Shown here: piece after piece, positions 1,184-12,181 of the stretch
Numbering within the stretch: position 1 is the first letter of the stretch
Layout of the letters: each line of letters begins with the position of its first letter
From: Prevotellaceae bacterium
GTDB lineage: Bacteria; Bacteroidota; Bacteroidia; Bacteroidales; UBA932
Assembly: GCA_031257455.1 (NCBI GenBank)
Contig: JAIROQ010000116.1
Span: 1-12,249, forward strand
Direction of reading: 5' to 3'
DNA: 12,249 bases
Notes under the pieces: generated by a model
Told to the model about the DNA's origin: nothing
Database searches by the model: none
What the model saw: only the letters and a program-made list of their open reading frames with translations
Translations under genes and position numbers: made by a program

Positions 1184-1288
1184 AGTCATAAGTCGTAAGT
1201 CGCGGCAAGCGCGATGGCGCCAGCAAAATCTGTAAATCCGTAAATCTGTAAATACCCAATTAGTCACATTAGCAAATTAGCAAATTAT
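1184..1288. repeat. Tandem-repeat mosaic upstream of the yhbP-like gene
   Basis: Four pieces follow one another. Three 7-bp units (AGTCATA, AGTCGTA, AGTCGCG) run 1184-1204. A GC-rich block overlaps their end at 1199-1224; on the minus strand it reads GCTGGCGCC then GCGCTTGCCGCGAC. About three 8-bp units of the type TGTAAATC run 1227-1254. Last comes ATTAGTCAC followed by ATTAGCAA-type units (about 1259-1288), the same family as the arrays at 6925-6961 and 8335-8371. The mosaic ends 4 bp before the -7 box of the next gene, so it occupies the -33 region. Confidence 0.75.
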
Positions 1289-1291
1289 TAC

Positions 1292-1299
1292 TATTTTTG
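1292..1299 (+). promoter_or_regulatory. Bacteroidetes -7 box TATTTTTG for the yhbP-like gene
   Basis: TATTTTTG matches TAnnTTTG and ends only 4 bases before the ATG at 1304. With a start site about 7 nt downstream, the mRNA would be leaderless or nearly so. No clear -33 TTTG lies 19-21 bp upstream; that space is ATTAGCAA repeat. Confidence 0.55.
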
Positions 1300-1303
1300 C
1301 ATT

Positions 1304-1729
1304 ATGGCAACGATAGACCGCCGCATTATTGACTTTATCCACGAGCGCCATGTGCTGACGCTGGCTACGTGTAGCGCGCATCAGCCTTATTGTGCATCGC
1401 TGTTTTATGCCTATATGGAAGAAGAGAATGTATTTGTTTTTACGTCTGACGCTGCTACGCGGCATCTTTCCGAGGCATTGCAAAATCCTGCTGTCGCCGG
1501 CGCTATTGCATGGGAGACGAAAACCGTTGGACTTATTCGCGGCTTGCAATTTCAAGGCACGTTATTCCGTCCCGGCAAAGAATTAATCCGGCATGCCCAC
1601 TACGCCTATCTGCGCCGTTTTCCCTTTGCCATATTGCGTGGTACACCCCTTTGGACACTCCGTCCCACCTTTTTAAAATATACCGACAACCGCTTGGGCT
1701 TCGGTAAAAAAATAATTGTAACTTTGTAA
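1304..1729 (+). CDS. yhbP: YhbP/UPF0306-like flavin split-barrel protein
   Basis: The product has 141 residues, close to E. coli YhbP, and belongs to the pyridoxamine 5'-phosphate oxidase-like FMN-binding split-barrel fold. Family-specific stretches are KTVGLIRGLQFQG (about 73-85), RRFPFA (about 104-109) and the C-terminal KYTDNRLGFGKK (about 125-136), which parallel YhbP segments I recall. The N-terminal part (HVLTLATC, about 16-23; FVFTSDAATRH, about 44-54) is the usual first half of the barrel. No signal peptide is seen, so it is cytoplasmic. Members are thought to bind flavin, but the substrate is unknown and PLP synthesis should not be assumed. The start at 1304 is the only sensible ATG, just after a -7 box. 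Repeat-rich DNA lies on both sides, so it is probably a single-gene unit. Confidence 0.85.
   Translation: MATIDRRIIDFIHERHVLTLATCSAHQPYCASLFYAYMEEENVFVFTSDAATRHLSEALQNPAVAGAIAWETKTVGLIRGLQFQGTLFRPGKELIRHAHYAYLRRFPFAILRGTPLWTLRPTFLKYTDNRLGFGKKIIVTL
1694..1726 (+). promoter_or_regulatory. Possible promoter for the esterase-kbl-rlmN group
   Basis: TAACTTTG (1719-1726) fits TAnnTTTG and overlaps the last codons of the yhbP-like gene. TTGG (1694-1697), one base off TTTG, lies 21 bp upstream. Transcripts would carry a leader of about 70 nt containing the whole TAAACTT array. Because the box lies in coding sequence it may be chance. Confidence 0.4.
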
Positions 1730-1754
1730 AACAGGAAATGAAAAACCATGCCCA

Positions 1755-1803
1755 TAAACCTTAAACTTTAAACTTTAAACCTCAAACTTTAAACTTATAA
1801 ATC
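1755..1803. repeat. Seven contiguous heptads (TAAACYT) ending 3 bp before a start codon
   Basis: Units are TAAACCT (1755-1761), TAAACTT (1762-1768), TAAACTT (1769-1775), TAAACCT (1776-1782), CAAACTT (1783-1789), TAAACTT (1790-1796) and a degenerate ATAAATC (1797-1803). Only AAC separates the last unit from the ATG of the esterase gene at 1807. This is the cleanest array in the window and the only one without a GC-rich block. Confidence 0.9.
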
Positions 1804-1806
1804 AAC

Positions 1807-2643
1807 ATGAAATCTTTTCTTTTCGGTCTGATGACCCTGTGTGTATTCAACGCCGGCGCGGCGCGGGTAGATTCCGTAGCTATCGTCAGCGCGGCAATGA
1901 ATGTGCCGGTGAAAACGGTAGTTATTGTTCCCGATGCGGTGCGCCCTCATCCGGCGCAAAATTATCCGGTCATCTATCTGTTGCACGGCTATAGCGGGAA
2001 CGAACAGTCATGGATTACTACGAAGCCCGATTTGCCCCGTATTGCAGACGAACGGGGCGTTATCTTTGTCTGCCCGGACGGTAAAAACAGTTGGTATCTG
2101 GACAGTCCGATGGATACGCTCTCGAAGTATGAAACGTTTATATCCGTTGAATTGGTGGCGTATGTGGATACGCATTATCCCACGCTGGCAGGCAGGGCCT
2201 ACCGCGCAATTACCGGCTTGAGTATGGGCGGTCATGGCGCGCTGTACAATGCCTTCCGCCACAAGGATGTTTTCGGCGCGGTAGGCAGCACCAGCGGCGC
2301 GGTGGATATTCGCCAGCGCGGGTCGAACTACGGATTGGTGAACCTGCTGGGCGACCTCTCCACCCACAGGGAGAATTGGGAAAGCCGCTCGGTACATAAG
2401 CAAATAGCGCTTATCGGGAATGGCGACCTGGCGATTTATTTTGACTGCGGCGTGAGTGATTTCTGTTTTCCCTTGAACGAAGCCCTGCACCGCGCATTGT
2501 GGGAAAAAGGCATCGACCATGAATATACCACCCGCCAGGGCGCTCACAACCATACTTACTGGAACAATGCCATCGACTACCATATACTGTTTTTCTGCAA
2601 ATTCTTCCACAAGGAAGTCGGGAACGCGGGCACAGGAAAATAG
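1807..2643 (+). CDS. Exported FrmB-type serine esterase (alpha/beta hydrolase)
   Basis: The 278-residue product belongs to the putative esterase family (PF00756; FrmB/esterase D and feruloyl or acetyl esterases). Residues 1 to about 19 form a signal peptide (MKSFLFGLMTLCVFNAGAA) with no good lipobox, predicting a periplasmic soluble enzyme. PVIYLLHGYSGNEQSW (54-69) supplies the oxyanion-hole HG. GLSMGGHGA (137-145) is the nucleophile elbow with Ser139. The likely acid is Asp218 in CGVSDF, and the likely base is His247 or His249 in GAHNHTYW. The natural substrate cannot be read from sequence; an acyl or feruloyl ester of a glycan is as likely as S-formylglutathione, because FrmB itself is cytoplasmic. 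The last residues (about GNAGTGK) are encoded by a repeat that recurs just after the stop, so the C-terminus may have been lengthened. kbl follows after 59 bp. Confidence 0.85.
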   Translation: MKSFLFGLMTLCVFNAGAARVDSVAIVSAAMNVPVKTVVIVPDAVRPHPAQNYPVIYLLHGYSGNEQSWITTKPDLPRIADERGVIFVCPDGKNSWYLDSPMDTLSKYETFISVELVAYVDTHYPTLAGRAYRAITGLSMGGHGALYNAFRHKDVFGAVGSTSGAVDIRQRGSNYGLVNLLGDLSTHRENWESRSVHKQIALIGNGDLAIYFDCGVSDFCFPLNEALHRALWEKGIDHEYTTRQGAHNHTYWNNAIDYHILFFCKFFHKEVGNAGTGK

Positions 2644-2672
2644 GGGAGAACGCGCACAGGAAGTCCTGTGCG
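2622..2672 (+). repeat. Direct repeat plus perfect inverted repeat around the esterase stop
   Basis: GAACGCGGGCACAGGAA (2622-2638, inside the coding sequence) is repeated with a 2-bp deletion as GAACGCGCACAGGAA (2648-2662, after the stop). The second copy continues into a perfect palindrome, CGCACAGGA (2653-2661) and TCCTGTGCG (2664-2672). In RNA this could be a short hairpin between esterase and kbl. No T run follows, so it may lower read-through or stabilise a 3' end rather than terminate. Confidence 0.7.
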
Positions 2673-2702
2673 GTTAAAGCTGTAAATTTATAAATCTTTT
2701 TT

Positions 2703-3890
2703 ATGTACGGGAATTTTCAAAACCATTTGGCTGCCGAGTTGGCGGCCATCGAACAGGCCGGGTTGTATAAACACGAGCGGATTATTGTAACGCCCCAACA
2801 GGCGGTTATCAAAGTACAGGCGGGACAGGAAGCATTGAACTTCTGCGCCAACAATTACCTGGGTTTGTCGAACCACCCGCGGGTAATACGCGCGGCGCAA
2901 GAGGCGATGGACGAACGCGGCTACGGCATGTCGAGCGTGCGCTTTATCTGCGGTACGCAAGACCTGCACAAAGAACTGGAAGCGGCGATTTCGCGCTACT
3001 TCCAGACGGAAGACGCTATTTTATATGCCGCCTGCTTCGATGCCAACGGCGGGGTTTTTGAGCCCCTGTTTGACGAACATGACGCCATTATTTCGGACGC
3101 CCTGAACCATGCGTCCATCATTGACGGCGTGCGTCTGTGCAAGGCGCAACGCTACCGTTATGCCAATGCCGATATGGACGAACTGGAAAGCTGTTTGAAA
3201 ACGGCGCAGGCGCAGCGTTACCGCATTATCGTTACGGACGGCGTATTTTCCATGGACGGCAATGTAGCGCCGGTGGATAAAATTTGTGCATTGGCCGAAA
3301 AATACCATGCCCTGGTAATGGTGGACGAGAGCCACTCGGCGGGCGTGGTCGGCAAAACCGGCCGCGGCGTAAGCGAATATTTCGATGCCTATGGAAAGAT
3401 TGACATTTATACCGGCACGCTCGGAAAGGCATTTGGCGGCGCTATCGGGGGCTTCACCACCGGCCGCAGGGAGATTATTGCCTTATTGCGCCAACGTTCG
3501 CGTCCATATTTATTTTCCAACTCCCTCCCGCCGGCAGTGGTGAAAGCAGGGCTGGAAGTATTCAAGCTGTTGGACGAAAGTCACGAATTGCACGCCCGGC
3601 AGCAAGAAAATGTACGCTATTTCCGCGACAGGATGCAGGCTGCCGGTTTTGATATCAAGCCTACGCAAAGCGCCATCTGCGCCGTCATGCTGTATGACGC
3701 CGGCCTCTCGCAGACCTTTGCTTCCCGCATGTTAGAAGAGGGAATTTATGTTGTCGGGTTTTATTATCCGGTCGTTCCGAAAGGGCAGGCGCGTATTCGC
3801 GTACAGCTTTCCGCCGCCCACGAAAAAGCCCACCTCGACAAAGCCATCGCAGCATTTGTGAAAGTGGGGAAAGAGTTGAAAGTGGTATAA
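2703..3890 (+). CDS. kbl: Glycine C-acetyltransferase (2-amino-3-ketobutyrate CoA ligase)
   Basis: Kbl cleaves 2-amino-3-oxobutyrate with CoA to glycine and acetyl-CoA, the second step of threonine breakdown through threonine dehydrogenase. It is a cytoplasmic PLP enzyme of the alpha-oxoamine synthase group. Its 395 residues compare with about 398 in E. coli. Visible signatures are FCANNYLGLSNHP (47-59), SVRFICGTQDLHKELE (78-93), ISDALNHASIIDGVRLCKA (130-148; His136 should stack on PLP), MVDESH (206-211; Asp208 pairs with the pyridine nitrogen), TGTLGKAFGG (237-246; Lys242 forms the Schiff base) and PVVPKGQARIR near the C-terminus. The DALNHASIIDG and PKGQARIR blocks favour Kbl over BioF or HemA. 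No threonine dehydrogenase lies nearby, so the partner must be elsewhere. rlmN begins one base after the stop. Confidence 0.96.
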   Translation: MYGNFQNHLAAELAAIEQAGLYKHERIIVTPQQAVIKVQAGQEALNFCANNYLGLSNHPRVIRAAQEAMDERGYGMSSVRFICGTQDLHKELEAAISRYFQTEDAILYAACFDANGGVFEPLFDEHDAIISDALNHASIIDGVRLCKAQRYRYANADMDELESCLKTAQAQRYRIIVTDGVFSMDGNVAPVDKICALAEKYHALVMVDESHSAGVVGKTGRGVSEYFDAYGKIDIYTGTLGKAFGGAIGGFTTGRREIIALLRQRSRPYLFSNSLPPAVVKAGLEVFKLLDESHELHARQQENVRYFRDRMQAAGFDIKPTQSAICAVMLYDAGLSQTFASRMLEEGIYVVGFYYPVVPKGQARIRVQLSAAHEKAHLDKAIAAFVKVGKELKVV

Positions 3891-3891
3891 T

Positions 3892-4905
3892 ATGTATTCA
3901 TTCCTGCTTGGTAAAACCCTTTCCGAACTGACGGCCGTAGCGATACAGGCGGGTTTGCCTTCTTTTGCCGGAAAACAGTTGGCCGACTGGTTATACAGGA
4001 AAAACGTTATCACGATAGCGGAAATGAGCAACCTCTCGAAAACGGTGCGGGAAGCGTTGGGCAGGAAATATGAGGTCGGCGGTTTTGCGCCTGCGGAAGT
4101 GCAACGCTCGCAAGACGGCACGAAAAAATACCTTTTCCCCACGATGTCCGGGCATTTTATCGAAACAGTGATGATTCCTGAAGCAGGACGCGCCACGCTG
4201 TGTGTGTCATCGCAGGCAGGTTGCCGGATGGGCTGCCGGTTTTGCATGACGGCGCGGCAGGGATTTCAGGCGAACCTGTCGGCCGGTGAAATCATTGCAC
4301 AATTCAGCCGCGTGGATGAATGCGAACAACTCACCAACGCAGTATATATGGGCATGGGCGAGCCGATGGACAACATAGACGAAGTACTCAAAAGCTTGGA
4401 AATTCTAACCGCTCCCTGGGGTTGGGGCTGGAGTCCGCGCCGCATAACGGTTTCCACTATCGGCGTATTGCCGGCCATGCAGCGTTTGCTGGACGAGAGC
4501 CGCTGCCATGTGGCGGTGAGCCTCCACAATCCCTTTGACGCCGAACGGCAGGAATTGATGCCCACGCAAAAAGCATGGCCGTTGGCCGATGTGGTGGCGC
4601 TGTTGAAAAAATATGATTTCACCGGGCAGCGGCGCGTAAGTTTTGAATATATTCTATTCGCCGGCGTCAATGATTTGCCGCATCATGCCGATGAACTGGC
4701 GAGGCTGCTGCGAGGATTGGAATGCCGCGTGAACCTTATTCGTTTCCATGCTATTCCCGGTACGCCGTTGCAACCGGCCGGCGAAATGCAGCTGGAAAAA
4801 TTCAAGAACCACTTGAACAAAAAAGGACTGTTAACGACTGTCCGCGCCTCGCGGGGAGAGGATATTTCCGCCGCCTGCGGCTTGCTTTCTACGATGAAAC
4901 AATAA
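3892..4905 (+). CDS. rlmN: 23S rRNA A2503 / tRNA A37 C2-methyltransferase, radical SAM
   Basis: RlmN makes 2-methyladenosine at A2503 of 23S rRNA, and in tested bacteria at A37 of some tRNAs, using a methyl carried on a cysteine. The 337-residue protein has the accessory N-terminal domain (1 to about 95), then the radical-SAM core with cluster cysteines 111, 115 and 118 (CRMGCRFC). The two extra catalytic cysteines are present: Cys104 in TLCVSSQ and Cys329 in RGEDISAACG. MGMGEPMDN (153-161) is the SAM-binding GEP segment. Having Cys104 and Cys329 plus MGMGEP supports a standard RlmN; Cfr is a close relative but has no support here. It lies one base after kbl and is probably co-transcribed with it, although the functions are unrelated. 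Confidence 0.95.
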   Translation: MYSFLLGKTLSELTAVAIQAGLPSFAGKQLADWLYRKNVITIAEMSNLSKTVREALGRKYEVGGFAPAEVQRSQDGTKKYLFPTMSGHFIETVMIPEAGRATLCVSSQAGCRMGCRFCMTARQGFQANLSAGEIIAQFSRVDECEQLTNAVYMGMGEPMDNIDEVLKSLEILTAPWGWGWSPRRITVSTIGVLPAMQRLLDESRCHVAVSLHNPFDAERQELMPTQKAWPLADVVALLKKYDFTGQRRVSFEYILFAGVNDLPHHADELARLLRGLECRVNLIRFHAIPGTPLQPAGEMQLEKFKNHLNKKGLLTTVRASRGEDISAACGLLSTMKQ

Positions 4906-5010
4906 CCGGCAGTATCCTAAAAAAGGAATTACCGCAACAGGTCGTAAGTGGCGGCGGTATGCACGCCGTAAAGCAGCCATATTGATAAAACATGCGAATC
5001 AGCAGTCACA

Positions 5011-5085
5011 ATTGACTATTTTTATTGACTATTGACTATTTTGGCTGTCGCCAGCAAATCAGAAATCAGAAATCAAAAAATCAAG
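5011..5085. repeat. Two heptad arrays between convergent rlmN and tgt
   Basis: ATTGACT occurs at 5011-5017, 5024-5030 and 5031-5037 with 6-7-bp spacing. A shortened GC-rich block (GGCTGTCGCCAGC, 5043-5055) follows. Then come AAATCAG (5056-5062), AAATCAG (5063-5069), AAATCAA (5070-5076) and a slipped AAAATCA (5077-5083). The last three bases, TCA at 5081-5083, are the TGA stop of tgt on the minus strand, so the array abuts that gene exactly. The remainder of the rlmN-tgt gap (4906-5010) shows only a weak CGGCG/CGCCG hairpin at 4952-4968. Confidence 0.8.
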
Positions 5086-6214
5086 AAATTTTCCCAATCA
5101 GGGTTTGGCTGATACTGTTTTTCCATTGGATAAAATCACCGGCCTCGATGTGTTGGCGGCTCTGCTCCATGAGGCTGAGATAGAATGCGAGGTTGTGAAG
5201 GCTGGCAATCTGCGGCCCCAGCATCTCGCCCGAAATGAAAAGATGCCGCAGGTAGGCTTTGGTATATATGCTGTCCACAAACGATGTGCCTTTCGGGTCG
5301 ATGGGCGAGAGGTCGTCCGCCCATTTTTTATTGCGGATGTTGATCATGCCGTCCCACGTAAAAAGCGTGCCGTTGCGCCCGTTGCGCGAAGGCATCACGC
5401 AGTCGAACATGTCCACTCCGCGTGCAATGCATTCCAACAGATTGGCCGGCGTCCCCACGCCCATGAGGTAGCGGGGCATACCGACGGGAATAAGCGGCAT
5501 AACGGCTTCGAGTATTTCATACATCACCTCTGCCGGTTCTCCTACGGACAGGCCGCCGATAGCAATTCCGTCACACTGGAACGAGAGGGCATGTTCGGCA
5601 GCCATTTTCCGCAAATCCTGAAATACGCAGCCCTGAATGATCGGGAAAAAAAACTGCGGGTAATCGTACAACGGTTCGGTATGCCGGAAATGTTTTATGC
5701 CTCGTTCGAGCCATTGCTGGGTAAGCTGCAGCGAGCGCCGGGCATATATATAATCAGACGTGCCGGGCGGGCATTCGTCCAGCGCCATGATAATATCCGC
5801 GCCGATGATGCGTTGAATATCCACTACATTTTCCGGCGTGAAGAAATGCTTTGAGCCGTCAATATGCGAGTGAAATTCGCAACCGTCTGACGTTAATTTC
5901 CGGTGTTCTGCCAATGAAAAAATCTGGTATCCGCCGCTATCCGTTAATATCGGCCGCTTCCACGACACAAAGCGATGGATGCCCCCCGCTTTCCGCAATA
6001 TATTGATGCCCGGCCGGAGATAGAGGTGATAGGTGTTTCCCAAAATAATCTGTGCATTTACATCATTCCGAAGGTCGCGGTGGATAACGCCTTTGACGCT
6101 TCCTATCGTCCCGACAGGCATAAAAATGGGCGTGCGGATTTTGCCATGTGCGGTGTGTATAATTCCGGTACGTGCTTTGGATAATGGGTCTGTAGCTGTT
6201 AAATCAAATGTCAT
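5081..6214 (-). CDS. tgt: tRNA-guanine(34) transglycosylase, bacterial type, zinc cysteines absent
   Basis: Tgt exchanges guanine 34 of GUN-anticodon tRNAs (Asp, Asn, His, Tyr) for preQ1 in queuosine synthesis. The 377-residue length is normal. Asp92 in LTDSGGYQIFSL (90-101) is the general base, DECPP (146-150) and GGLSVGE (220-226) line the base pocket, and Asp271 in GVDMFDCVMPSRNGRNG (266-282) is the expected nucleophile. The structural zinc site of the enterobacterial and Zymomonas enzymes needs CxCxxC plus a His. Here the aligned positions are Gly309, Ser311 and Asp314, while His340 (SLHN) remains. The frame is intact around this change, so it is not a frameshift, and I recall the same loss in other Bacteroidales Tgt proteins. 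Its own promoter lies at 6243-6250; queE is upstream on the same strand. Confidence 0.95.
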   Translation of the reverse strand: MTFDLTATDPLSKARTGIIHTAHGKIRTPIFMPVGTIGSVKGVIHRDLRNDVNAQIILGNTYHLYLRPGINILRKAGGIHRFVSWKRPILTDSGGYQIFSLAEHRKLTSDGCEFHSHIDGSKHFFTPENVVDIQRIIGADIIMALDECPPGTSDYIYARRSLQLTQQWLERGIKHFRHTEPLYDYPQFFFPIIQGCVFQDLRKMAAEHALSFQCDGIAIGGLSVGEPAEVMYEILEAVMPLIPVGMPRYLMGVGTPANLLECIARGVDMFDCVMPSRNGRNGTLFTWDGMINIRNKKWADDLSPIDPKGTSFVDSIYTKAYLRHLFISGEMLGPQIASLHNLAFYLSLMEQSRQHIEAGDFIQWKNSISQTLIGKIS

Positions 6215-6242
6215 GTCGTCTGCCGTTCGTTAGTAAGAGCTA

Positions 6243-6250
6243 CAAAGATA
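6243..6250 (-). promoter_or_regulatory. -7 box TATCTTTG for tgt
   Basis: Minus-strand TATCTTTG is an exact TAnnTTTG, ending 28 nt before the tgt ATG (6214). A TTTA about 20 bp upstream could serve as -33. It lets tgt be expressed separately from queE. Confidence 0.65.
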
Positions 6251-6282
6251 GGAAAATTTTCTTGCGGAGTAAATCATAAAGG

Positions 6283-6324
6283 CCTTTTTGGATATAGGTT
6301 TTGTAACATTTATCCGGAAAAAGG
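6283..6324 (-). terminator. Long stem-loop 2 nt after the queE stop
   Basis: Bases 6283-6294 pair with 6311-6324 over 12 bp with a 2-nt bulge (GG) on one side and a 16-nt loop. The stem combines a GGATA/TATCC part with an AAAAAGG/CCTTTTT part. On the minus strand it comes directly after the queE stop (6329-6327) and before the tgt promoter, as expected for a terminator or processing hairpin. The T run lies within the stem, not clearly after it. Confidence 0.45.
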
Positions 6325-6326
6325 GT

Positions 6327-6920
6327 TCAGGGGATAGCTAAGAATTTATGTGTTTGGAGTGATAAGCGCCATTGGGGATGTTGCCGGATATACGCTACCA
6401 CCAACGGCGCAACAGCCGAGTACCTACTCCATTCCGGTTGCAGCAACCGCAGGCATTCCGGCGCTACTTGCCGGGCATTTTCTTCAGCCCATGCAAAATC
6501 ATCCGGCGCAGCGATGATCACCTTTAATTCGCCGGCGTGCCGGTAATTTTCTTGCCGCGGCGGTTGTTGCCGCTTGGGCGACAGGCAAACCCAATCCCAT
6601 GTCCCCGAAAACGCACCCGTGCCGGATGTTTCGAGGTGCAGGCGGCAATGCTGTTCCTTCAAGGGCGCACACAGCTTGTCCAGCGGATACAGCAACGGCT
6701 CACCGCCCGTAACAATCACCGTCCGGCACGGATAGGCGCTCACCCGTCCGGCAATGTCGCCGGCGGACAGGCGCCGGAATGCACCGGCGTTCCATGTTTC
6801 TTTTGCATCACACCACGAACAGGCGTTGCGGCATCCCGCCAGCCGCACGAAAACCGCCGGAACGCCCGCGTACCAGCCTTCGCCCTGTAATGAATAAAAT
6901 ATTTCTGCCACAGGAAACAT
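6327..6920 (-). CDS. queE: 7-carboxy-7-deazaguanine synthase, radical SAM
   Basis: QueE turns 6-carboxy-tetrahydropterin into 7-carboxy-7-deazaguanine, the step that forms the deazapurine ring on the way to preQ0, preQ1 and queuosine. With the start at 6920 it has 197 residues. The N-terminal AEIFYSLQGEGWYAG (5-19) is the QueE opening, and GCRNACSWCD (29-38) gives cluster ligands Cys30, Cys34 and Cys37. TGGEPLLYP (71-79) is the SAM-contacting GGEP, LETSGT (96-101) follows, and the protein ends SLQTHKFLAIP as family members do. The frame is open upstream to an ATG at 7031, but those 37 codons would be translated tandem repeats, so the ATG before FPVAEIF is the start. No TAnnTTTG box is visible; it probably depends on read-through from pfkA. 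It lies 112 bp from tgt, the later enzyme of the same pathway. Confidence 0.94.
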   Translation of the reverse strand: MFPVAEIFYSLQGEGWYAGVPAVFVRLAGCRNACSWCDAKETWNAGAFRRLSAGDIAGRVSAYPCRTVIVTGGEPLLYPLDKLCAPLKEQHCRLHLETSGTGAFSGTWDWVCLSPKRQQPPRQENYRHAGELKVIIAAPDDFAWAEENARQVAPECLRLLQPEWSRYSAVAPLVVAYIRQHPQWRLSLQTHKFLAIP

Positions 6921-6924
6921 TTTT

Positions 6925-7078
6925 TGATGTGCTAATATGACTAATGTGCTAATGTGACTAATTGGGCTGGCGCCGGAACTCAGTGAGCAGTGAACAGTGA
7001 ACAGTGAGCAGTGAACAACAGGCTGGCGCAAGCCACCTCATACTTCATACTTCATACCTCATACCTCATACCTCAAAA
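6925..7078. repeat. Repeat mosaic filling the pfkA-queE gap
   Basis: Nearly the whole gap is repeat. About two copies of a 17-bp unit (ATGTGCTAATGTGACTA, with one variant) lie at 6925-6961. A GC-rich block (GGGCTGGCGCCGG) is at 6964-6976. Five heptads CAGTGAR run 6981-7015. A second GC-rich block (GGCTGGCGCAAGCC) is at 7021-7034. Five YTCATAC heptads run 7037-7071, followed by a degenerate CTCAAAA. The heptad at 7065-7071 contains the pfkA stop codon (TGA on the minus strand, 7068-7066), and the last two pfkA codons (GAG GTA) continue the array. Confidence 0.9.
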
Positions 7079-8175
7079 AAATCCCCCATGCAAATGTTAA
7101 TCCCGCGGGCGGTTTGAACGAGGTTGTCGGTGTTTTGTACGAATTTCATGTGTCCCACAGCTTCGGTCAGCGGAACGGAAATAATGTCGGGCTGCCGGTA
7201 AGCGACCATATAGCCAAACTCGCCGTTTTTCACCATTTCAAAGGCTTTCACGCCGAATTGCGAGGCAAGGATACGGTCATAAGCCACCGGCGAGCCGCCA
7301 CGTTGCACGTGTCCCAATACGGTTTCGCGGATATCAAGGTCAATGCCGGCGGCTTTCAGTTCGGACGAAAGGCGTGCAGCAGCGCCGGCCAGACGGAAAT
7401 TTTCATACCCCACCTCTGTGCCGGCATAGCCCGACACCGCGCCGTCCAGCGGCTTCGCGCCTTCGGAAACCACTATTACCGCAAATCGTTTGCCACGCTG
7501 GAAACGGTCGTCCATACAACGTATAATACTGTCGATACTGTACGGTATTTCCGGTATCAGGCACACTTCAGCGCCGCCGGCAATGGCGCAACTCAAGGCA
7601 ATCCATCCGGCATCGCGCCCCATCACTTCCATAATCAGGATGCGGTTGTGGCTTTCGGCAGTAGTGACTAATTTGTCGAGCGCGTCTGTAGCGGTTTGTA
7701 CAGCGGTCTGGAAGCCGAAAGTATAGTCTGTAGCCGCAAGGTCGTTATCAATAGTTTTCGGAACGCCGATAACCGGCAGGCCTTTTTCAAACAGTTTTTG
7801 CGAGATGCGTTGCGAGCCGTCTCCGCCGATATTCACGACCGCATCAATGCCCAGCAGTTGGCACTTGCGAATCATTTCGTCAGAGCGGTCAACGGCTTCC
7901 CATGTGCCATCGGCTTTTTTGACCGGCCATGCAAAAGGGCCGCCCTTATTGGTAGTGCCGATAATCGTGCCGCCGCGCACATGAATACCCGACACTACTT
8001 TCGGGTCTAAAACCCGGATGTTCGTAGGCTCTTCCATCAGCCCGTTAAACGATTGGATACTGCCTAATACTTCCCATTCGCGTTCCTGATGAGCGCGTTT
8101 CACGAAAGCGCGAAGCACGGCATTCAGTCCGGGGCAATCGCCGCCGCCGGTAGCTACTAAAACTCGTTTCTTCAT
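7066..8175 (-). CDS. pfkA: 6-phosphofructokinase, group III (PfkA family)
   Basis: It phosphorylates fructose 6-phosphate to the 1,6-bisphosphate in glycolysis, in the cytoplasm. With the start at 8175 the protein is 369 residues, longer than E. coli PfkA (320), as in group III. Key segments are VATGGGDCPGLN (7-18), GGDGS (117-121), PKTIDND (139-145) with catalytic Asp143, IMEVMGRDAGWIAL (181-194) and ETVLGHVQRGGSP (284-296). Gly120 is the residue typical of ATP users, whereas PPi users have Asp there. Lys140 replaces the Gly of E. coli and is seen in both PPi-dependent and group III ATP enzymes. ATP is therefore the likelier phosphoryl donor, but this needs an assay. The open frame reaches 8229, but that start lies upstream of the -7 box at 8194-8201, so MKKRVLVATGG is used. 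The stop codon is inside a tandem repeat. Confidence 0.94.
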   Translation of the reverse strand: MKKRVLVATGGGDCPGLNAVLRAFVKRAHQEREWEVLGSIQSFNGLMEEPTNIRVLDPKVVSGIHVRGGTIIGTTNKGGPFAWPVKKADGTWEAVDRSDEMIRKCQLLGIDAVVNIGGDGSQRISQKLFEKGLPVIGVPKTIDNDLAATDYTFGFQTAVQTATDALDKLVTTAESHNRILIMEVMGRDAGWIALSCAIAGGAEVCLIPEIPYSIDSIIRCMDDRFQRGKRFAVIVVSEGAKPLDGAVSGYAGTEVGYENFRLAGAAARLSSELKAAGIDLDIRETVLGHVQRGGSPVAYDRILASQFGVKAFEMVKNGEFGYMVAYRQPDIISVPLTEAVGHMKFVQNTDNLVQTARGINICMGDFFEV

Positions 8176-8193
8176 TTTTTCAAAATTAAGTTG

Positions 8194-8201
8194 CAAAGGT
8201 A
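8194..8201 (-). promoter_or_regulatory. -7 box TACCTTTG for pfkA
   Basis: Minus-strand TACCTTTG fits TAnnTTTG and ends 18 nt before the ATG at 8175. A TTTT about 19 bp upstream is a poor -33. The box decides the start, because the longer open frame begins upstream of it. Confidence 0.65.
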
Positions 8202-8233
8202 ATACAATTTTATGGAGTTGAAAATGCAATTCA

Positions 8234-8371
8234 GTGATTAATGGTTAGTGGTTAATTGCGGCAAGCGCAGCGGCGTCAGCCAAAATAGTCAATAGTCAAT
8301 AATTAAATAGTCAATTCGCACCGGCGTCAGCCCAATTAGTCACATTAGCACATTAGTCACATTAGCACATT
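8234..8371. repeat. Repeat mosaic between rimO and pfkA
   Basis: Units from left to right: GTGATTA, ATGGTTA, GTGGTTA heptads (8234-8254); the fullest GC-rich block (TTGCGGCAAGCGC then GGCGTCAGCC, 8256-8281); AGTCAAT heptads with a degenerate middle (about 8286-8313), the complement of ATTGACT seen at 5011-5037; a second GC-rich block (GCACCGGCGTCAGCCC, 8318-8333); and two full 17-bp units (ATTAGTCACATTAGCAC) at 8335-8351 and 8352-8368. The last unit includes the rimO stop codon (8364-8362) and its two final sense codons. Confidence 0.9.
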
Positions 8372-9663
8372 TCCAAATCTCCATACAGGTCATACGTATC
8401 GGCGGCGGTGATGGTGATGTCGTAGAACTTTCCGGGTTGGAGGGTTTTTCCGGCTGCGGGGATGAGCGCTTCGCCGTCCACTTCCGGCGAGTCGTACTGC
8501 GTGCGGCCTGTATAATAATCGCCCTCGCGGCGGTCAATAATGGTGCGGAAAGTTTTCCCGATTTTCTCTTCATTCAGTTTTTGTGAAATGTGCGCTTGCA
8601 GCGACATAATGCGGTCGCGGCGCGCCTGTTTTTCCCGGTCGGGAATGGTATCCTGAAAGCGCTTCGCCCCATAAGTGCCTTCTTCTTCGGAATAACAAAA
8701 GACGCCGAGCCGCTCGAAGCGCGTTTTTTCCACAAAGTCTTCCAGTTCGCGGAAAGCCGCTTCATCTTCTCCCGGATGACCTACAATGAGCGTAGTGCGC
8801 AACGCGATACCGGGTATATCCGTACGCAGTTTTTCAATCAATGCGCGCGTCCGCCGTCCGTCTATACGGCGGCGCATCTTCTTCAATACCGTGTCGGATA
8901 TATGCTGCAACGGAATATCGAGGTACTTGCAAAGTTTCGGGTTATCGCGTATCACCGGCAGCACGTCTTTGGGGAAGTACGCGGGGTAGGCATAATGCAG
9001 GCGTATCCATTCTATTTCCTGCACTTCCGAGAGGGCGGTTAAGAGGCCGGACAGGTGGCGGCGGCCATAGAGGTCGATACCGTAGTATGTCGTGTCCTGC
9101 GCGGTAATCAGCAGTTCTTTTACGCCACGCGCCGCCAGGAATTTTGTTTCCGTCACTAACTGCTCAAGGGGAGTTGAGCGGTGTTTGCCGCGAATGAATG
9201 GAATAGCGCAATAGGAGCAGCCCCAGTTGCATCCTTCCGAGATTTTGAGGTAGGCATAATGCGCAGGAGTGGCCATCACCCGCTGGGTAGGGAATTTCGG
9301 AGAAGGCACGCCGCCCAGCGCTTCCACAATCCGGTCAAATTCGTCTATCCCGAAAAACCTGTCCACTTCGGGCAATTCCTGCTGCAACTCCTGCCGGTAG
9401 CGTTGCGAAAGGCAACCGAACACAAAGATACGTTCCACGTCCCCGCGTTTTTTCGCCTCCACCACCGACAGGATAGTATTCACCGACTCTTCCTTCGCAT
9501 CATTGATAAATCCGCAGGTATTGATAAGGACGGTCTTTGCGCCGGCGGCATGGTCGCTGTGCGTCGCATGGAACCCCGCCGCCTGTAACTGCCGCATCAG
9601 CCGCTCGGAATCCACCAGGTTTTTAGCGCAACCAAGCGTAATAAGTTGTAAGTCGTAAGCCAT
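8362..9663 (-). CDS. rimO: Ribosomal protein S12 methylthiotransferase, radical SAM
   Basis: RimO adds a methylthio group to the conserved aspartate of ribosomal protein S12 (Asp88 in E. coli). The 433 residues give the expected three domains. The N-terminal UPF0004 domain holds auxiliary-cluster cysteines 12, 50 and 84 (ITLGCAKNLVDSE, INTCGF, VFGCLSQRY). The radical-SAM core has Cys145, Cys149 and Cys152 (ISEGCNWGCSYCAIPFIRGKHRS). A C-terminal TRAM domain spans about 368-430. The LGCAKNLVDSE opening and the IPFIRGKHRS sequence favour RimO over MiaB. No -7 box is evident upstream; the 156-bp gap to rsmE is filled with repeats. Two oddities: the first codons (about 9661-9642) look like a run of ACTTACR heptads, and the last codons plus stop lie in the 17-bp array. 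Confidence 0.95.
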   Translation of the reverse strand: MAYDLQLITLGCAKNLVDSERLMRQLQAAGFHATHSDHAAGAKTVLINTCGFINDAKEESVNTILSVVEAKKRGDVERIFVFGCLSQRYRQELQQELPEVDRFFGIDEFDRIVEALGGVPSPKFPTQRVMATPAHYAYLKISEGCNWGCSYCAIPFIRGKHRSTPLEQLVTETKFLAARGVKELLITAQDTTYYGIDLYGRRHLSGLLTALSEVQEIEWIRLHYAYPAYFPKDVLPVIRDNPKLCKYLDIPLQHISDTVLKKMRRRIDGRRTRALIEKLRTDIPGIALRTTLIVGHPGEDEAAFRELEDFVEKTRFERLGVFCYSEEEGTYGAKRFQDTIPDREKQARRDRIMSLQAHISQKLNEEKIGKTFRTIIDRREGDYYTGRTQYDSPEVDGEALIPAAGKTLQPGKFYDITITAADTYDLYGDLEMC

Positions 9664-9667
9664 TTTA

Positions 9668-9829
9668 ATTGAAAATTGAGAGTGGAGAGTTGAAAATGTT
9701 TTTAGTTATGAGGTATGAATTATGAGGTATGAGTTGCGACAAGCGCACTGTCGAAAAGTCGCAAATCGAGTATCGAGTATCGCAACCTTAAATCTTTAAA
9801 TCTTTAAATCTTTAAATCTTTAAATTATA
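9668..9829. repeat. Repeat mosaic between rsmE and rimO
   Basis: Units from left to right: degenerate GAGAGTT/GTGGAGA-type heptads (about 9668-9697); GTTATGA, GGTATGA, ATTATGA, GGTATGA (9705-9732), the complement of the TCATACY family; a diverged GC-rich block (GTTGCGACAAGCGCACTGTC, about 9733-9752) continuing to GTCGCAAATC; GAGTATC twice (9768-9781); and four perfect AAATCTTT octamers (9790-9821) plus a degenerate fifth. The rsmE stop codon (9822-9820) lies at the edge of the fourth octamer. Confidence 0.9.
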
Positions 9830-10518
9830 TAGCTTGCCATGCAGGCAATCATTCCGGCGGTTTCGACCCGGAAGCGGCTTTCGCCGAAAGTCACGGGCTT
9901 GAAGCCGGCTTGCAGGGCGGCTTGCATTTCGCGTTTCGAGAAATCGCCTTCGGGGCCGATGAGCGTCAGGATACGCCGGCTCGAGGGCAGGACTTTCCAG
10001 AATAATTCGCGCGGTACGTCCGGGTGACAGCAACCGATGTATTTTCCGCAGTCGAAAGGTTGCCGGATAAAATCGTCAAAGGCGATGGGCGGGTTTAGTT
10101 GCGGCAAGCGCGTTTTCAGTGATTGCTTCATTGCGGCAACCAGTATTTTTTCCCACCGTTCCGTTTTTACTGTCCGGCGTTCGGAGTGGTCGCATATCAC
10201 CGGCGTGATTTCGTCTATGCCTATTTCGGTGACGGTGTCCAACAGTTGTTCGTAACGGTCGTTATTCTTGGTGGGCGCTACCGCCAGATGCAGATAATAA
10301 TTGCGTACGCCGTAATTTTCCTGCTTGCCGGTTATCTTTATTTCGCAATGTTTAATCCGGTCATCCGTGATTTGGGCGGTGTATAAAGCGCCTCTGCCGT
10401 CAGTCAAGTACAGCGTGTCGCCCACCGAAAGACGCAGCACGCGAAGACAGTGTTTGCTTTCTTCTTCCGGCAGCACATAACGCTCGCCGGAGATGTCGGG
10501 AGTATAAAATAATAACAT
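9820..10518 (-). CDS. rsmE: 16S rRNA (uracil1498-N3)-methyltransferase
   Basis: RsmE methylates N3 of U1498 in helix 44 of 16S rRNA in the assembled 30S subunit. The 232-residue length is normal. An N-terminal PUA-like RNA-binding region (about 1-70; HCLRVLRLSVGDTLYLTDGRG at 23-43) precedes a SPOUT (trefoil-knot) methyltransferase domain. Its knot motifs are visible: DEITPVICDHSERR (102-115), LTLIGPEGDFSKREM (185-199) with the SAM-binding GPEG at 188-191, and GESRFRVETAG (212-222), the family's LRxETA-type motif. No membrane segment is present. A -7 box lies at 10540-10547. The final codons run straight into AAATCTTT repeats. Confidence 0.93.
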   Translation of the reverse strand: MLLFYTPDISGERYVLPEEESKHCLRVLRLSVGDTLYLTDGRGALYTAQITDDRIKHCEIKITGKQENYGVRNYYLHLAVAPTKNNDRYEQLLDTVTEIGIDEITPVICDHSERRTVKTERWEKILVAAMKQSLKTRLPQLNPPIAFDDFIRQPFDCGKYIGCCHPDVPRELFWKVLPSSRRILTLIGPEGDFSKREMQAALQAGFKPVTFGESRFRVETAGMIACMASYII

Positions 10519-10539
10519 GGACGGGTTTATTTATTTTGT

Positions 10540-10547
10540 CAAAGTTA
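10540..10547 (-). promoter_or_regulatory. -7 box TAACTTTG for rsmE
   Basis: Minus-strand TAACTTTG fits TAnnTTTG and ends 21 nt before the ATG at 10518. No TTTG occurs at the right spacing upstream, where the strand is T-rich. Confidence 0.6.
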
Positions 10548-10612
10548 CAAAAAAACAAAAAATCGCTTTTCCCGGATTTTCAGCCATGACAATGGAGATT
10601 TCATATAATAAA

Positions 10613-10644
10613 AAAACAGGCTACCTGAGAAGACAGCCTGTTTT
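10613..10644 (-). terminator. Intrinsic terminator after rpmE
   Basis: AGCCTGTTTT (10635-10644) and AAAACAGGCT (10613-10622) form a perfect 10-bp stem with a 12-nt loop. On the minus strand a run of Ts follows the GC-rich part. It lies 15 bp beyond the rpmE stop and separates rpmE from rsmE, which has its own promoter. This is the clearest terminator in the window. Confidence 0.85.
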
Positions 10645-10659
10645 CATTCGTACAAAACC

Positions 10660-10920
10660 TTATTTTTTTGCTTCCAGCGCTTTTTTATAGCGGTTACGGA
10701 ATTTATCTACCCGGCCGGCGGTATCCACCAGTTTCATTTTCCCGGTGTAGAACGGATGCGAGGTGTTGGAAATTTCGACTTTGTATAAAGGATATTCCAC
10801 GCCGTCAAGGTTAATGGTTTCGCGTGTCTGCACGGTGGAGCGGGTAACAAACGTATGGTCGTTCGACATGTCTTTGAACGCCACTAAGCGGTAATTTTCG
10901 GGATGAAGATGTTGTTTCAT
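10660..10920 (-). CDS. rpmE2: 50S ribosomal protein L31, type B (cysteine-free)
   Basis: L31 bridges the 50S and 30S subunits. The 86-residue product starts [17 protein letters not shown] and carries [29 protein letters not shown] sequence in the middle, as in type B L31. It has no cysteine, so it lacks the zinc-binding CxxC of type A; type B proteins are zinc-independent and longer in the middle. The gene is its own unit, with a full promoter at 10954-10985 and an intrinsic terminator at 10613-10644. In Bacteroidetes type B is commonly the sole L31, so its presence need not mean a zinc-starvation paralogue. Confidence 0.95.
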
Positions 10921-10953
10921 ATAATTCTTTTTTCTTTTTCAAATTTCGGATTG

Positions 10954-10985
10954 CAAAAGTAGTATATTTTTCCTGATTATACAAA
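10954..10985 (-). promoter_or_regulatory. Complete Bacteroidetes promoter for rpmE2
   Basis: On the minus strand, TTTG (10985-10982) is followed by exactly 20 bp and then TACTTTTG (10961-10954). This matches the -33/-7 pattern TTTG-N19-21-TAnnTTTG. The -7 box ends 33 nt before the ATG at 10920. It is the best-formed promoter seen here. Confidence 0.8.
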
Positions 10986-11013
10986 TACCCTGCATTTTTT
11001 CTGTTTTCCGCCT

Positions 11014-11796
11014 TTAATTTTTTGCTTCCTTACAGGTCAGGATACTGATTTCATAAAGCAGGTAGAGCGGGACAGCGGCTAAAATCATGGAGAAAATATC
11101 GGCGGGCGTAATGATGGCGGCAAGGATGAGCAATACTACAATAGCGTGCCGGCGGTATTTGCGGAGCATCGCACGGTTCACCACGCCTATCCGCGAGAGA
11201 ATGTGTATCAGCACAGGGAACTCAAACACGATGCCCATAGCCAGTACCAGCGAAGTGAGCGTGCCGATATAGGATTGCAGCGAAATCTGGTTTTTCACTT
11301 CTGCGCTGACCTGGTAGCCGCCCAGAAAATGGAGGGCAAAGGGAAAAATCATCAGGTAAGCCACCGTCACGCCGGCATAAAACAGCAGTGACGAAAAGAT
11401 GAAAGCGCGTTTAATGCTGCGCTGTTCTTTCGGATACAGCGCGGGTGCAATGAAACGCCATAATTCCCAAATCAGGTAAGGAAAACCGAGTATGAGCGCA
11501 ATCCAGAAAGAAGTCGAAAGGTGAATAATGAACTGTGACGACAGGTTGATGTTGATAAGGTCTATATGGAATGGTTCGGGACACAAGTCCGCCCATGAAA
11601 ATTGGTTGTTTAATGCACACAACCATCGGTAGAGGATGAAATCAGACGAGCGCGGGGAAAGGATGAGCGTGTCGAACACAAAGGACTTGAACAGGAAAAC
11701 AACGACCATCAGCGCCGCCAGCGCGATAATCATGCGAAACAACATTTGCCGGAATTCTTCGAGATGTCCCCAGAAAGTGAGTTCTTTGTTTTTCAT
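11014..11796 (-). CDS. tatC: Twin-arginine translocase subunit TatC
   Basis: TatC is the inner-membrane receptor that recognises twin-arginine signal peptides of folded cargo. The 260-residue product begins KELTFWGHLEEFRQ (4-17), the conserved cytoplasmic N-tail with its acidic pair. Six hydrophobic segments lie at about 19-37, 90-112, 132-155, 175-200, 217-232 and 234-252. FPYLIWELWRFIAPALYPKE (105-124) is the conserved cytoplasmic-loop signature. The periplasmic stretch between segments 1 and 2 (about 40-88) is fairly long, as I recall for Bacteroidetes. It starts 23 bp after tatA ends and is surely co-transcribed from the tatA promoter. No terminator is apparent before the rpmE2 promoter. 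Confidence 0.94.
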   Translation of the reverse strand: MKNKELTFWGHLEEFRQMLFRMIIALAALMVVVFLFKSFVFDTLILSPRSSDFILYRWLCALNNQFSWADLCPEPFHIDLININLSSQFIIHLSTSFWIALILGFPYLIWELWRFIAPALYPKEQRSIKRAFIFSSLLFYAGVTVAYLMIFPFALHFLGGYQVSAEVKNQISLQSYIGTLTSLVLAMGIVFEFPVLIHILSRIGVVNRAMLRKYRRHAIVVLLILAAIITPADIFSMILAAVPLYLLYEISILTCKEAKN

Positions 11797-11819
11797 ACCG
11801 CCTCTTGCCGCCTGCCCGC

Positions 11820-12005
11820 TTAATCAATTTCTTTTTTGATGTCGTTTTCGGCTTCTTTGAGGCCTTCCTTAAAACTTTTCATGCCTTTGCCCAGGCCTTT
11901 CATCAATTCGGGAATTTTTTTACCGCCGAACAGCAGTACGATGGCCAATACGATAAGTACAATTTGCCATGGCCCCACAACCCCTAAAAAAGTAAGCATA
12001 TTCAT
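11820..12005 (-). CDS. tatA: Twin-arginine translocase subunit TatA
   Basis: TatA monomers assemble around TatBC-type receptors to form the Tat pathway. From the ATG at 12005 the product has 61 residues; the ATG at 11999 (MLTFLGV) is equally possible. Trp13-Gln14 before the membrane helix (about 12-26) matches the WQ of E. coli TatA, FGGKKIPELMKGLGKG (26-41) is the hinge and amphipathic helix, and a charged tail follows. The open frame reaches 12026, but that ATG overlaps the -7 box at 12024-12031 and so would not be transcribed. With tatC 23 bp downstream and no tatB, this looks like a two-component TatAC operon in which one TatA-like protein does both jobs. Confidence 0.92.
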   Translation of the reverse strand: MNMLTFLGVVGPWQIVLIVLAIVLLFGGKKIPELMKGLGKGMKSFKEGLKEAENDIKKEID

Positions 12006-12023
12006 AGTTTTGTAATTTTTGCA

Positions 12024-12031
12024 CAAAGATA
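12024..12031 (-). promoter_or_regulatory. -7 box TATCTTTG for tatAC
   Basis: Minus-strand TATCTTTG fits TAnnTTTG. The start site would be near 12017, leaving a leader of roughly 12-18 nt. There is no TTTG at -33; that space approaches the GGTATGA heptad array. Confidence 0.65.
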
Positions 12032-12046
12032 CAAAAAAAGTTAAGA

Positions 12047-12074
12047 AGTATGAGGTATGAAGTATGAGGTATGG
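12047..12074. repeat. Four RGTATGA heptads upstream of tatA
   Basis: AGTATGA (12047-12053), GGTATGA (12054-12060), AGTATGA (12061-12067) and GGTATGG (12068-12074) are contiguous. This is the same family, in opposite orientation, as YTCATAC at 7037-7071, and the same orientation as at 9705-9732. A GC-rich stretch (TTGCGAAGAACTGCGC, about 12077-12092) follows and may be a decayed copy of the spacer block. Confidence 0.8.
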
Positions 12075-12181
12075 AATTGCGAAGAACTGCGCTATTCAAA
12101 ATATTCACATCAAATAAATGTATTGAAATGGTTTTATTTTTAAACATATATATATTTATGGAAGGAGCGCTGAAAACTATT

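Follow-up and report, generated by a model that had tools for sequence, protein, structure and literature searches.

Mosaics of 7- and 8-bp tandem arrays joined to GC-rich connectors in the intergenic DNA of a Prevotellaceae bacterium

Introduction

Tandem arrays of 7-bp units between genes are on record in cyanobacteria, Xanthomonas, Beggiatoaceae and some Bacteroidetes (PMC4692102, PMC4679880), and cyanobacterial tandem heptamers were described by Mazel et al. 1990 (as cited in PMC4692102). An earlier note on a 12,249-bp stretch of Prevotellaceae DNA (the window) held that no named family fits the short arrays that fill its intergenic gaps, which these records contradict. Here we describe the arrays, the GC-rich connectors that adjoin them, and their occurrence in the genome and genus.

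The cyanobacterial tandem heptamers carry the label short tandemly repeated repetitive (STRR) sequences. Like STRR sequences and long simple sequence repeats, the arrays studied here are tandem units of about 7 bp in several copies, mainly intergenic and dispersed. With the cyanobacterial heptamers they share the presence of several 7-bp unit types per genome, and they differ in having a mixed library of 7- and 8-bp units, a lineage-specific GC-rich connector, recurring junctions and polarity. In long simple sequence repeats period 7 is dominant, as it is here; slippage was proposed for them (Mrazek et al. 2007, as cited in PMC4679880 and PMC4692102), whereas here some blocks are copied whole.

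The TAACTGA repeats of Beggiatoaceae, Cyanobacteria and Bacteroidetes (MacGregor 2015, PMC4679880) are also intergenic, and in some Bacteroidetes the heptamers are mixed. The shorter gaps of relatives are described there as lacking obvious repeats, and indels between two Cyanothece strains as mostly 7-nt steps. That system has a single focal unit, found in its main genome mostly just 5' of start codons, whereas many units are used here and more of them lie at stops; the TAACTGA unit is missing from the set of 112 heptamers in our genome sample. The GGGNATC heptamers of Xanthomonas and Nostoc (Rehm et al. 2015, PMC4692102) are likewise dispersed and mainly non-coding; four units are preferred, and length and sequence vary strongly between close relatives. 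They form a single G-rich, quadruplex-forming type, whereas none of our sixteen seed units has GGG.

REP and REPIN sequences with their RAYT (PMC3733652) resemble our arrays as small dispersed families, mostly 3' of coding regions and uneven among species. They are palindromes with a stem of at least 5 bp and a GTAG or CGTC tag, whereas the stem of our core connector is 3 bp, and CGTC is present inside its GGCGTCAGCC part, where it does not tag a long stem. RAYT-driven REP was not supported as an explanation, because the core connector stems are too short and the transposase is patchy. In the literature on tandem heptamers of cyanobacteria, termite Bacteroidales and Bacteroidetes, searched at the level of titles and abstracts and with subscription literature mostly outside reach, no report of a connector-plus-array grammar was found. 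Intergenic heptamer arrays as such are known; the cassettes, the connector, the polarity and the mixed 7/8-bp library seem to be new.

Materials and methods

The window is the complete contig C36 of a fragmented metagenome-assembled genome (MAG) of 1,586,482 bp in 225 contigs, 80% complete (G000). The genome sample comprised 61 contigs including the window (462,862 bp), of which 57,459 bp were intergenic by a simple open reading frame (ORF) rule; six of the 60 added contigs had been picked for carrying CAGTGAR arrays. Arrays were detected with Tandem Repeats Finder (TRF) at a score of at least 30 in the window and at least 40 in the genome sample, and the control for chance was five first-order Markov simulations matched to the intergenic length. 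Periods of 7 or 8 plus their multiples are written 7k and 8k. Eight other assemblies of the same genus (G001–G008) were used as congeners, at sampled loci, and 31 further genomes outside the genus for pattern counts. Connectors were counted over these 40 genomes as a pattern with at most two mismatches, with the reversed pattern as control. The best named relative found through the RimO-like protein was the Prevotellaceae MAG isolate Roe453_bin86 (85% identity); nearer records may be missed. The names of isolates suggest that the bacterium may come from a termite gut.

Results and discussion

Arrays of period 7 and 8 are in excess between genes

We lean towards reading the mosaics as assemblies of dispersed, copyable STRR-like cassettes, spread by copying or recombination into tolerated spacer and not by slippage alone. 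In the sample the arrays are dispersed, some blocks are copied, junctions recur, arms recombine with different partners, the polarity tendency is strong and orthologous gaps differ; the modules tested are mostly restricted to a subclade.

TRF found arrays in each of the seven gaps listed in the earlier note, with the units described there, and unlike arrays do stand side by side in one gap. In the intergenic part of the genome sample we counted 80 arrays of period 7, 49 of period 8, 28 of period 14, 13 of period 21 and 12 of period 16 (in total 121 of 7k, 65 of 8k and 43 of the remaining periods), and none of period 2–6. Predicted coding frames held 45 arrays of 7k and 57 of other periods. The five simulations gave 11 arrays altogether, with none at period 7, 8 or 14, two at 21 and one at 16. 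With the window excluded, as well as the six contigs picked for CAGTGAR arrays, 81 arrays of 7k and 55 of 8k were among the 174 intergenic arrays in 49.6 kb. At a looser threshold, 7/8-bp arrays made up 15.5% of the sampled intergenic DNA, and 105 of 129 intergenic period-7/8 arrays had 3–5 units. The genome-wide period check that the note had proposed, run on this sample, confirmed that period 7, and with it period 8, is truly in excess. Its description of the arrays as mostly 7 bp and fewer 8 bp needs a shift of emphasis: period 7 does dominate, while period 8 is about half as common, multiples included. Its 17-bp array exists and is an 8+9 composite, ATTAGTCAC-ATTAGCAC.

Period-7 or -8 intergenic arrays were present in seven of the eight congeners, and none was seen within the 7.7 kb of intergenic DNA sampled from the eighth, G006. 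The arrays are thus real and not an artefact of a single assembly. An origin by misassembly or chance, to which the fragmented state of the MAG might point, is very improbable given the arrays in the other assemblies, the reversed-pattern controls of 0 and the near absence of arrays in the simulations.

Two further loci were noticed. L117 has 1.6 kb (13633–15229) that lacks a long predicted frame, carries many ACTGCCN-type and other arrays and may be a disrupted coding region with arrays inside it. In L246 (from G005), AGTTCTT and AACTCTT alternate with a 14-bp period from near base 5 onwards, in some eight dimers, which is clearly a repeat of two units.

Connectors, junctions and polarity

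The earlier note mentioned neither the GC-rich connectors between the arrays nor the stop codons inside arrays. The core connector has the consensus GCGRCARGCGC-ANN-GGCGTCAGCC, and shorter kin also occur. Its copies numbered 96 in G000, 12 in G007, 10 in G002 and 4 in G004, with none at up to two mismatches in G001, G003, G005, G006 and G008. Two copies were found in G022, from another genus of the same family, and none in the remaining 30 genomes; the reversed control gave 0 in all 40. The genome sample contains 30 intergenic core connectors at up to four substitutions and 8 more within predicted coding frames, and the GC-rich 10-mers GGCGTCAGCC and CGACAAGCGC occur 32 and 19 times in intergenic DNA versus 9 and 3 times in the sevenfold larger coding DNA.

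Left arms typically stop, and right arms start, at a fixed base relative to the core connector. Examples of the left junction (marked by a slash) are GTAAGTC/GCGRC, GAGTT/GCGAC and GAAAATG/GCGRC, and on the right GGCGTCAGCC is followed directly by AAATC, AAAATAGTC or CAATTAGTC. The left arm had more G than C at 27 of the 30 core connectors and the right arm more C than G, again at 27 of 30; both arms were polar in 24 of 30, compared with 23% at random intergenic points. The C>G skew 3' of the connector is the same whichever strand is read. When any GC-rich connector was considered and ties were omitted, the adjoining arrays obeyed this polarity in 73 of 100 cases in G000 and in 44 of 64 in seven congeners (8/8 in G001, where the core connector count at up to two mismatches is 0, 17/27 in G005, 1/3 in G008 and 0/1 in G006), and arrays without a connector had no bias in G000 (32 vs 31). 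TTTTAG lay up to 110 bp upstream of 15 of the 30 core connectors, versus 9%.

A dispersed repeat of the GCTCCGGTCGAAATGACG type was also observed 5' of left array cassettes in L117, L122 and L125, one 28-mer of it at four sampled loci, and a stretch resembling it at about 1090–1180 of the window abuts the AGTCGTA array.

Copied blocks and differing orthologous gaps

An irregular 32-mer, AATAGTCAATAGTCAATAATTAAATAGTCAAT, was found at six sampled loci with a shared left junction, different left arms and different continuations. Other weakly periodic 28-mers that run across array and connector were found at 3–6 loci each. The ATTAGTCACATTAGCAC composite, counted as ATTAGTCACATTAGCACATTAG with up to two mismatches, had 133 copies in G000, 135 in G007, 98 in G002, 78 in G001 and 11 in G005; the other four congeners had 0–2 each, the 31 genomes outside the genus none, and the control gave 0.

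Syntenic gaps were compared among five close genomes. Out of 51 comparisons, 7 were shorter than 20 bp in both genomes, 27 were arrayless, and in the other 17 at least one of the two genomes had an array. Both sides had arrays in five of the 17, and four of these five were unlike; orthologous gaps thus often differ in their cassettes. In the PFK–QueE gap the window has a mosaic of three cassettes, G007 a AAATCTTT array and G002 a worn copy of the latter, and in G005 the gap is 12 bp, stop to next start codon inclusive, although the PFK proteins are 93–97% identical. In the RsmE–RimO gap the mosaics of the window, G001 and G007 differ from one another and G002 has that of G007; the window mosaic nevertheless has short stretches, such as a connector half, in common with G007 and G002 above shuffles, and the G001 mosaic is unlike it. 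Unit number or length was kept despite substitutions in four homologous arrays from three gaps (two in RsmE–RimO and one in PFK–QueE of G002 and G007, and one in L244/L227 of G005 and G007), as judged by eye on this small sample. Among 297 arrays of at least four units from all sampled genomes, the similarity of units at lag 1 was no higher than in shuffled arrays (z 0.3), and at lag 2 it was above (z −4.3). This speaks against single-unit slippage and allows two-unit steps.

These data bear on an alternative in which every array was made in place by slippage with a preferred polymerase step of 7–8 bp and the mosaics are accumulated independent events. An interaction of about 7 nt with the polymerase is a published idea, and in most genomes the long repeats are reportedly heptamers more often than anything else (Mrazek et al. 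2007, as cited in PMC4679880 and PMC4692102); the dominance of 7k periods here and the similar words at loci outside the genus fit it. Slippage alone does not readily give one irregular 32-bp block at six loci or connectors with recurring junctions and polarity. The lag-1 similarity expected from one-unit duplication is missing, and the number of units stayed constant in four homologous arrays. We therefore regard it as unlikely to be the whole explanation, and it is plausible that slippage still founds words and makes two-unit steps. The note's argument that slippage is insufficient holds in so far as single-unit slippage leaves these features unexplained; its reference to so many unrelated units is misleading, the library being limited and recurrent and some blocks being copied whole.

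Several observations weigh against the cassette interpretation, in which the movement itself is what we infer. Arrays appeared on one side only, by threshold, in 12 of the 17 gap comparisons, and 6 of these 12 still align above shuffles, so that part of the difference is decay below the threshold and not replacement. The 17 comparisons stem from 8 distinct gaps, one of which gave six. The lag-2 signal is weaker in arrays of at least six units with trimmed ends (z −1.9). Because copied arrays are not independent, the polarity counts overstate their significance, and G005 by itself stands at 17 of 27. Clean empty sites were at best few among the compared gaps; by eye only, none was seen there, nor were terminal inverted repeats or target-site duplications. 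A Y1 transposase (PF01797) matched in two of the nine genomes, once each (G000 and G002), and in none of the seven others, among them the array-bearing G001, G005 and G007; the assemblies are incomplete.

Position relative to genes

Arrays occupied 88 of 224 sampled gaps (64 of 143 tandem, 17 of 46 convergent and 7 of 35 divergent). The stop codon lay within an array for 41 of 233 ORFs of at least 200 aa, the leftmost possible start for 8 of 233. At core connectors, the gene on the side of the right arm pointed into the element in 20 of 29 cases.

This distribution could be expected of an element acting at the RNA level, either a bidirectional terminator or a stabiliser of mRNA 3' ends, the C>G arm serving for Rho-type loading and the connector folding into a hairpin. 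The proximity of arrays to gene 3' ends, their rarity in divergent gaps, the inward-pointing genes and the 3' C>G skew common to both strands would suit such a role; avoidance of promoters would fit the positional bias too. The connectors fold weakly (z −0.2 to −1.5): four core connectors gave 3-bp stems only, and the short connector GCTGGCGCGTCAGC a 5-bp stem. Shuffling the arms at constant skew did not make folding worse (−20.97 kcal/mol for real elements, −22.27 for shuffled ones), and Rfam gave no match in the window up to E 0.1. We consider an RNA-level function improbable. A hairpin between the two arms was rejected, with a slight gain of real elements (−26.5) over re-paired arms (−24.7 to −25.9) and none over shuffled arms.

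Selection for stop codons, which a period that is not a multiple of three would place in every frame, was not supported either. A stop on at least one strand is present in 48 of 60 heptamer units versus 54 reversed and 48.3 shuffled; stops on both strands occur in 21, somewhat above shuffles (14.2; reversed 18).

Apart from the arrays, noncoding stretches of about 250 nt with long bulged inverted repeats were noticed in L118 (~16850–17230), L122 (~1880–2200), L111 (~6000–6321) and L221 (~6500–6950), those of L118 and L221 having a similar tail. They are possibly a dispersed structured RNA; Rfam gave only sub-threshold microRNA matches on these four loci, and none at the bulged-repeat stretches.

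A limited library of units

The arrays draw on a limited library of units, met with repeatedly in this genome and, as far as modules were tested, in its close congeners. In the genome sample, 59 of the 112 canonical heptamers were found on at least two contigs. Sixteen seed families were distinguished, which overlap, so that an array may be counted twice; transitions exceeded transversions among unit variants in 15 of them (G000 and G007), TGGCAGT being the exception. Variation is mostly confined to 1–3 positions of the unit, as in GTATGA[A/G], AGT[C/T][G/A]TA and AAATC[T/C]GT.

Similar words were seen farther away. At 79 RimO-anchored loci, 22 of 106 distinct heptamers belonged to the library, versus 8 reversed and a shuffle mean of 11. 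Without the four nearest loci, which are possibly of the same genus, the figures were 20 of 95, 7 and 10.1, and 3 of 1000 shuffles reached 20. Across the phylum, 27 of the 395 genomes surveyed contained TTCACTN four times in tandem; many of these matches have N=T, which makes the word mirror-symmetric, and the reversed control is for that reason not clean. Brasilonema and Sulfurovum plasmids carry arrays of the CAGTGAR word or near variants, the former having CARTRAA, which is close to it, side by side with CAGTTAY as in our mosaics. Both records were retrieved through this word and therefore show occurrence, not frequency. A BLAST query consisting of a single pure 42-bp array found nothing among plasmids, and neither did a control word, probably through low-complexity masking; of the mosaic queries, one gave 54 records and another one weak match.

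Tandem 7–8-bp sites might also serve a cooperative small protein, for example of the ribbon-helix-helix (RHH) type, in a centromere-like role or in chromosome organisation. The parS of pSM19035 likewise consists of contiguous 7-bp sites: ParB binds tandem WATCACW, and at least four contiguous repeats are required for full stimulation of the ParA ATPase (PMC9499535). The prevalence of 3–5 units here would be in keeping with this. On the Vibrio harveyi plasmid pvh5 (L291), two long arrays of TTCATAC, a word shared with the window, bracket mipZ and a small hypothetical gene (6921–7027 and 7919–8043) and may be a candidate plasmid centromere. Sixteen seed families would, however, demand many proteins or a very loose one, and the arrays stand in 88 of the 224 sampled gaps and differ between close relatives. 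Unlike plasmid centromeres, they are dispersed, use many words and have no par genes linked to them in the window. The ten window proteins had no Pfam match to an RHH protein or a ParA-type ATPase, and no RHH search was made over the rest of the genome. A protein-binding role has, in our opinion, a low probability.

How cassettes may spread

Under the cassette interpretation that we favour, a cassette would be a short array, mostly 3–5 units of a 7- or 8-bp word, drawn from the limited library. Cassettes would join a GC-rich connector at recurring junctions, with a tendency to a G>C array 5' and a C>G array 3', and would spread among gaps by copying or recombination, either through gene conversion at connectors and arrays or through a transposition activity acting in trans. 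They would settle where selection permits, between the stop codon and the next promoter, and then decay by point mutation. New words would probably arise through slippage during local replication, the origin that has been proposed for heptamer repeats at large. The arrays are most likely tolerated or selfish spacer DNA, and no host function is put forward.

A bolder version makes the mosaics a class of mobile element of their own, modular and intergenic, in which a GC-rich connector bears swappable array arms with strand-symmetric polarity. A dedicated activity would spread it, for instance one that recombines connectors or a polymerase writing 7–8-nt repeats. We hold this version to be doubtful. 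If it were true, the heptamer arrays of cyanobacteria and other bacteria would be products of the same or of convergent machinery.

Features of the window

A Pfam scan of ten window proteins gave PNPOx-like, esterase, aminotransferase, RlmN, TGT, radical-SAM, PFK, radical-SAM/TRAM and RNA methyltransferase matches, and the left-end open frame (307 aa) had none. Going beyond the Pfam result, we take the radical-SAM protein to be QueE-like, the radical-SAM/TRAM protein RimO-like and the RNA methyltransferase RsmE-like. The arrays and connectors are listed in Table 1. The stop codons of the TGT, PFK, RimO-like and RsmE-like genes fall within arrays; in six congeners the PFK stop is at position 366, and the window frame (369 residues) extends four residues to the stop that the array supplies. 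Clustered regularly interspaced short palindromic repeats (CRISPR) have longer repeats with unique spacers between them, and the head-to-tail 7–8-bp units of the window, which lack spacers, are not a CRISPR array, in agreement with the note.

Table 1. Arrays and connectors of the window, with their coordinates and the basis of each assignment
Feature	Position	Strand	Basis
Left-type cassette, AGTCGTA heptamers, G>C arm	1184..1202	+	TRF; family AGTYRTA
GC-rich core connector, variant GCGGCAAGCGC-GATGGCGCCAGC	1202..1224	+	Sequence
Right-type cassette, AAATCYGT octamers	1226..1253	+	TRF; recurrent unit family
Right-type cassette, ATTAGTCACATTAGCA(C) composite	1258..1287	+	TRF; 22-mer 133 times in G000 (up to 2 mismatches), reversed control 0
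TAAACYT heptamer array, immediately 5' of esterase gene	1755..1801	+	TRF
ATTGACT heptamer array	5011..5040		TRF
Short connector GGCTGTCGCCAGC	5043..5055		Sequence
AAATCAG heptamer array, covers TGT stop codon	5056..5089		TRF; ORF end 5081
ATTAGTCACATTAGCAC composite array	6927..6962	-	TRF; genome copy count
Short connector GGGCTGGCGCCGG	6964..6976		Sequence
CAGTGAR heptamer array	6981..7017	+	TRF; 29 genome pattern matches, reversed control 0
Short connector GGCTGGCGCAAGCC	7021..7034		Sequence
GTATGAR heptamer array, provides PFK stop codon	7035..7075	-	TRF; ORF end 7066
Left cassette, TTAGTGG heptamers	8233..8254	+	TRF
Core connector GCGGCAAGCGCAGCGGCGTCAGCC, zero mismatches to pattern	8258..8281	+	Pattern search
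Right cassette AATAGTCAATAGTCAATAATTAAATAGTCAAT, irregular 32-mer recurring at six sampled loci	8284..8315	+	Copy search
Half connector CCGGCGTCAGCCC	8321..8333	+	Sequence
ATTAGTCACATTAGCAC composite, covers RimO-like stop codon	8335..8371	+	TRF; ORF end 8362
Left cassette, RTATGAR heptamers	9707..9733	+	TRF
Left half of core connector, GCGACAAGCGC	9736..9746	+	Sequence
GAGTATC heptamers	9765..9782	+	TRF
AAATCTTT octamers, cover RsmE-like stop codon	9788..9825	+	TRF; ORF end 9820
GTATGAR heptamers	12048..12073	+	TRF

Concluding remarks

Heptamer arrays have been noted since 1990 with no agreed mechanism, and the marked junctions, the amplified connector and the graded series of congeners make the question of slippage versus cassettes testable here. 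Any mechanism has to account for the strand-symmetric polarity, which makes this a specific clue. As the PFK–QueE gap illustrates, spacers of two species may differ largely even where the protein encoded beside them is 97% identical.

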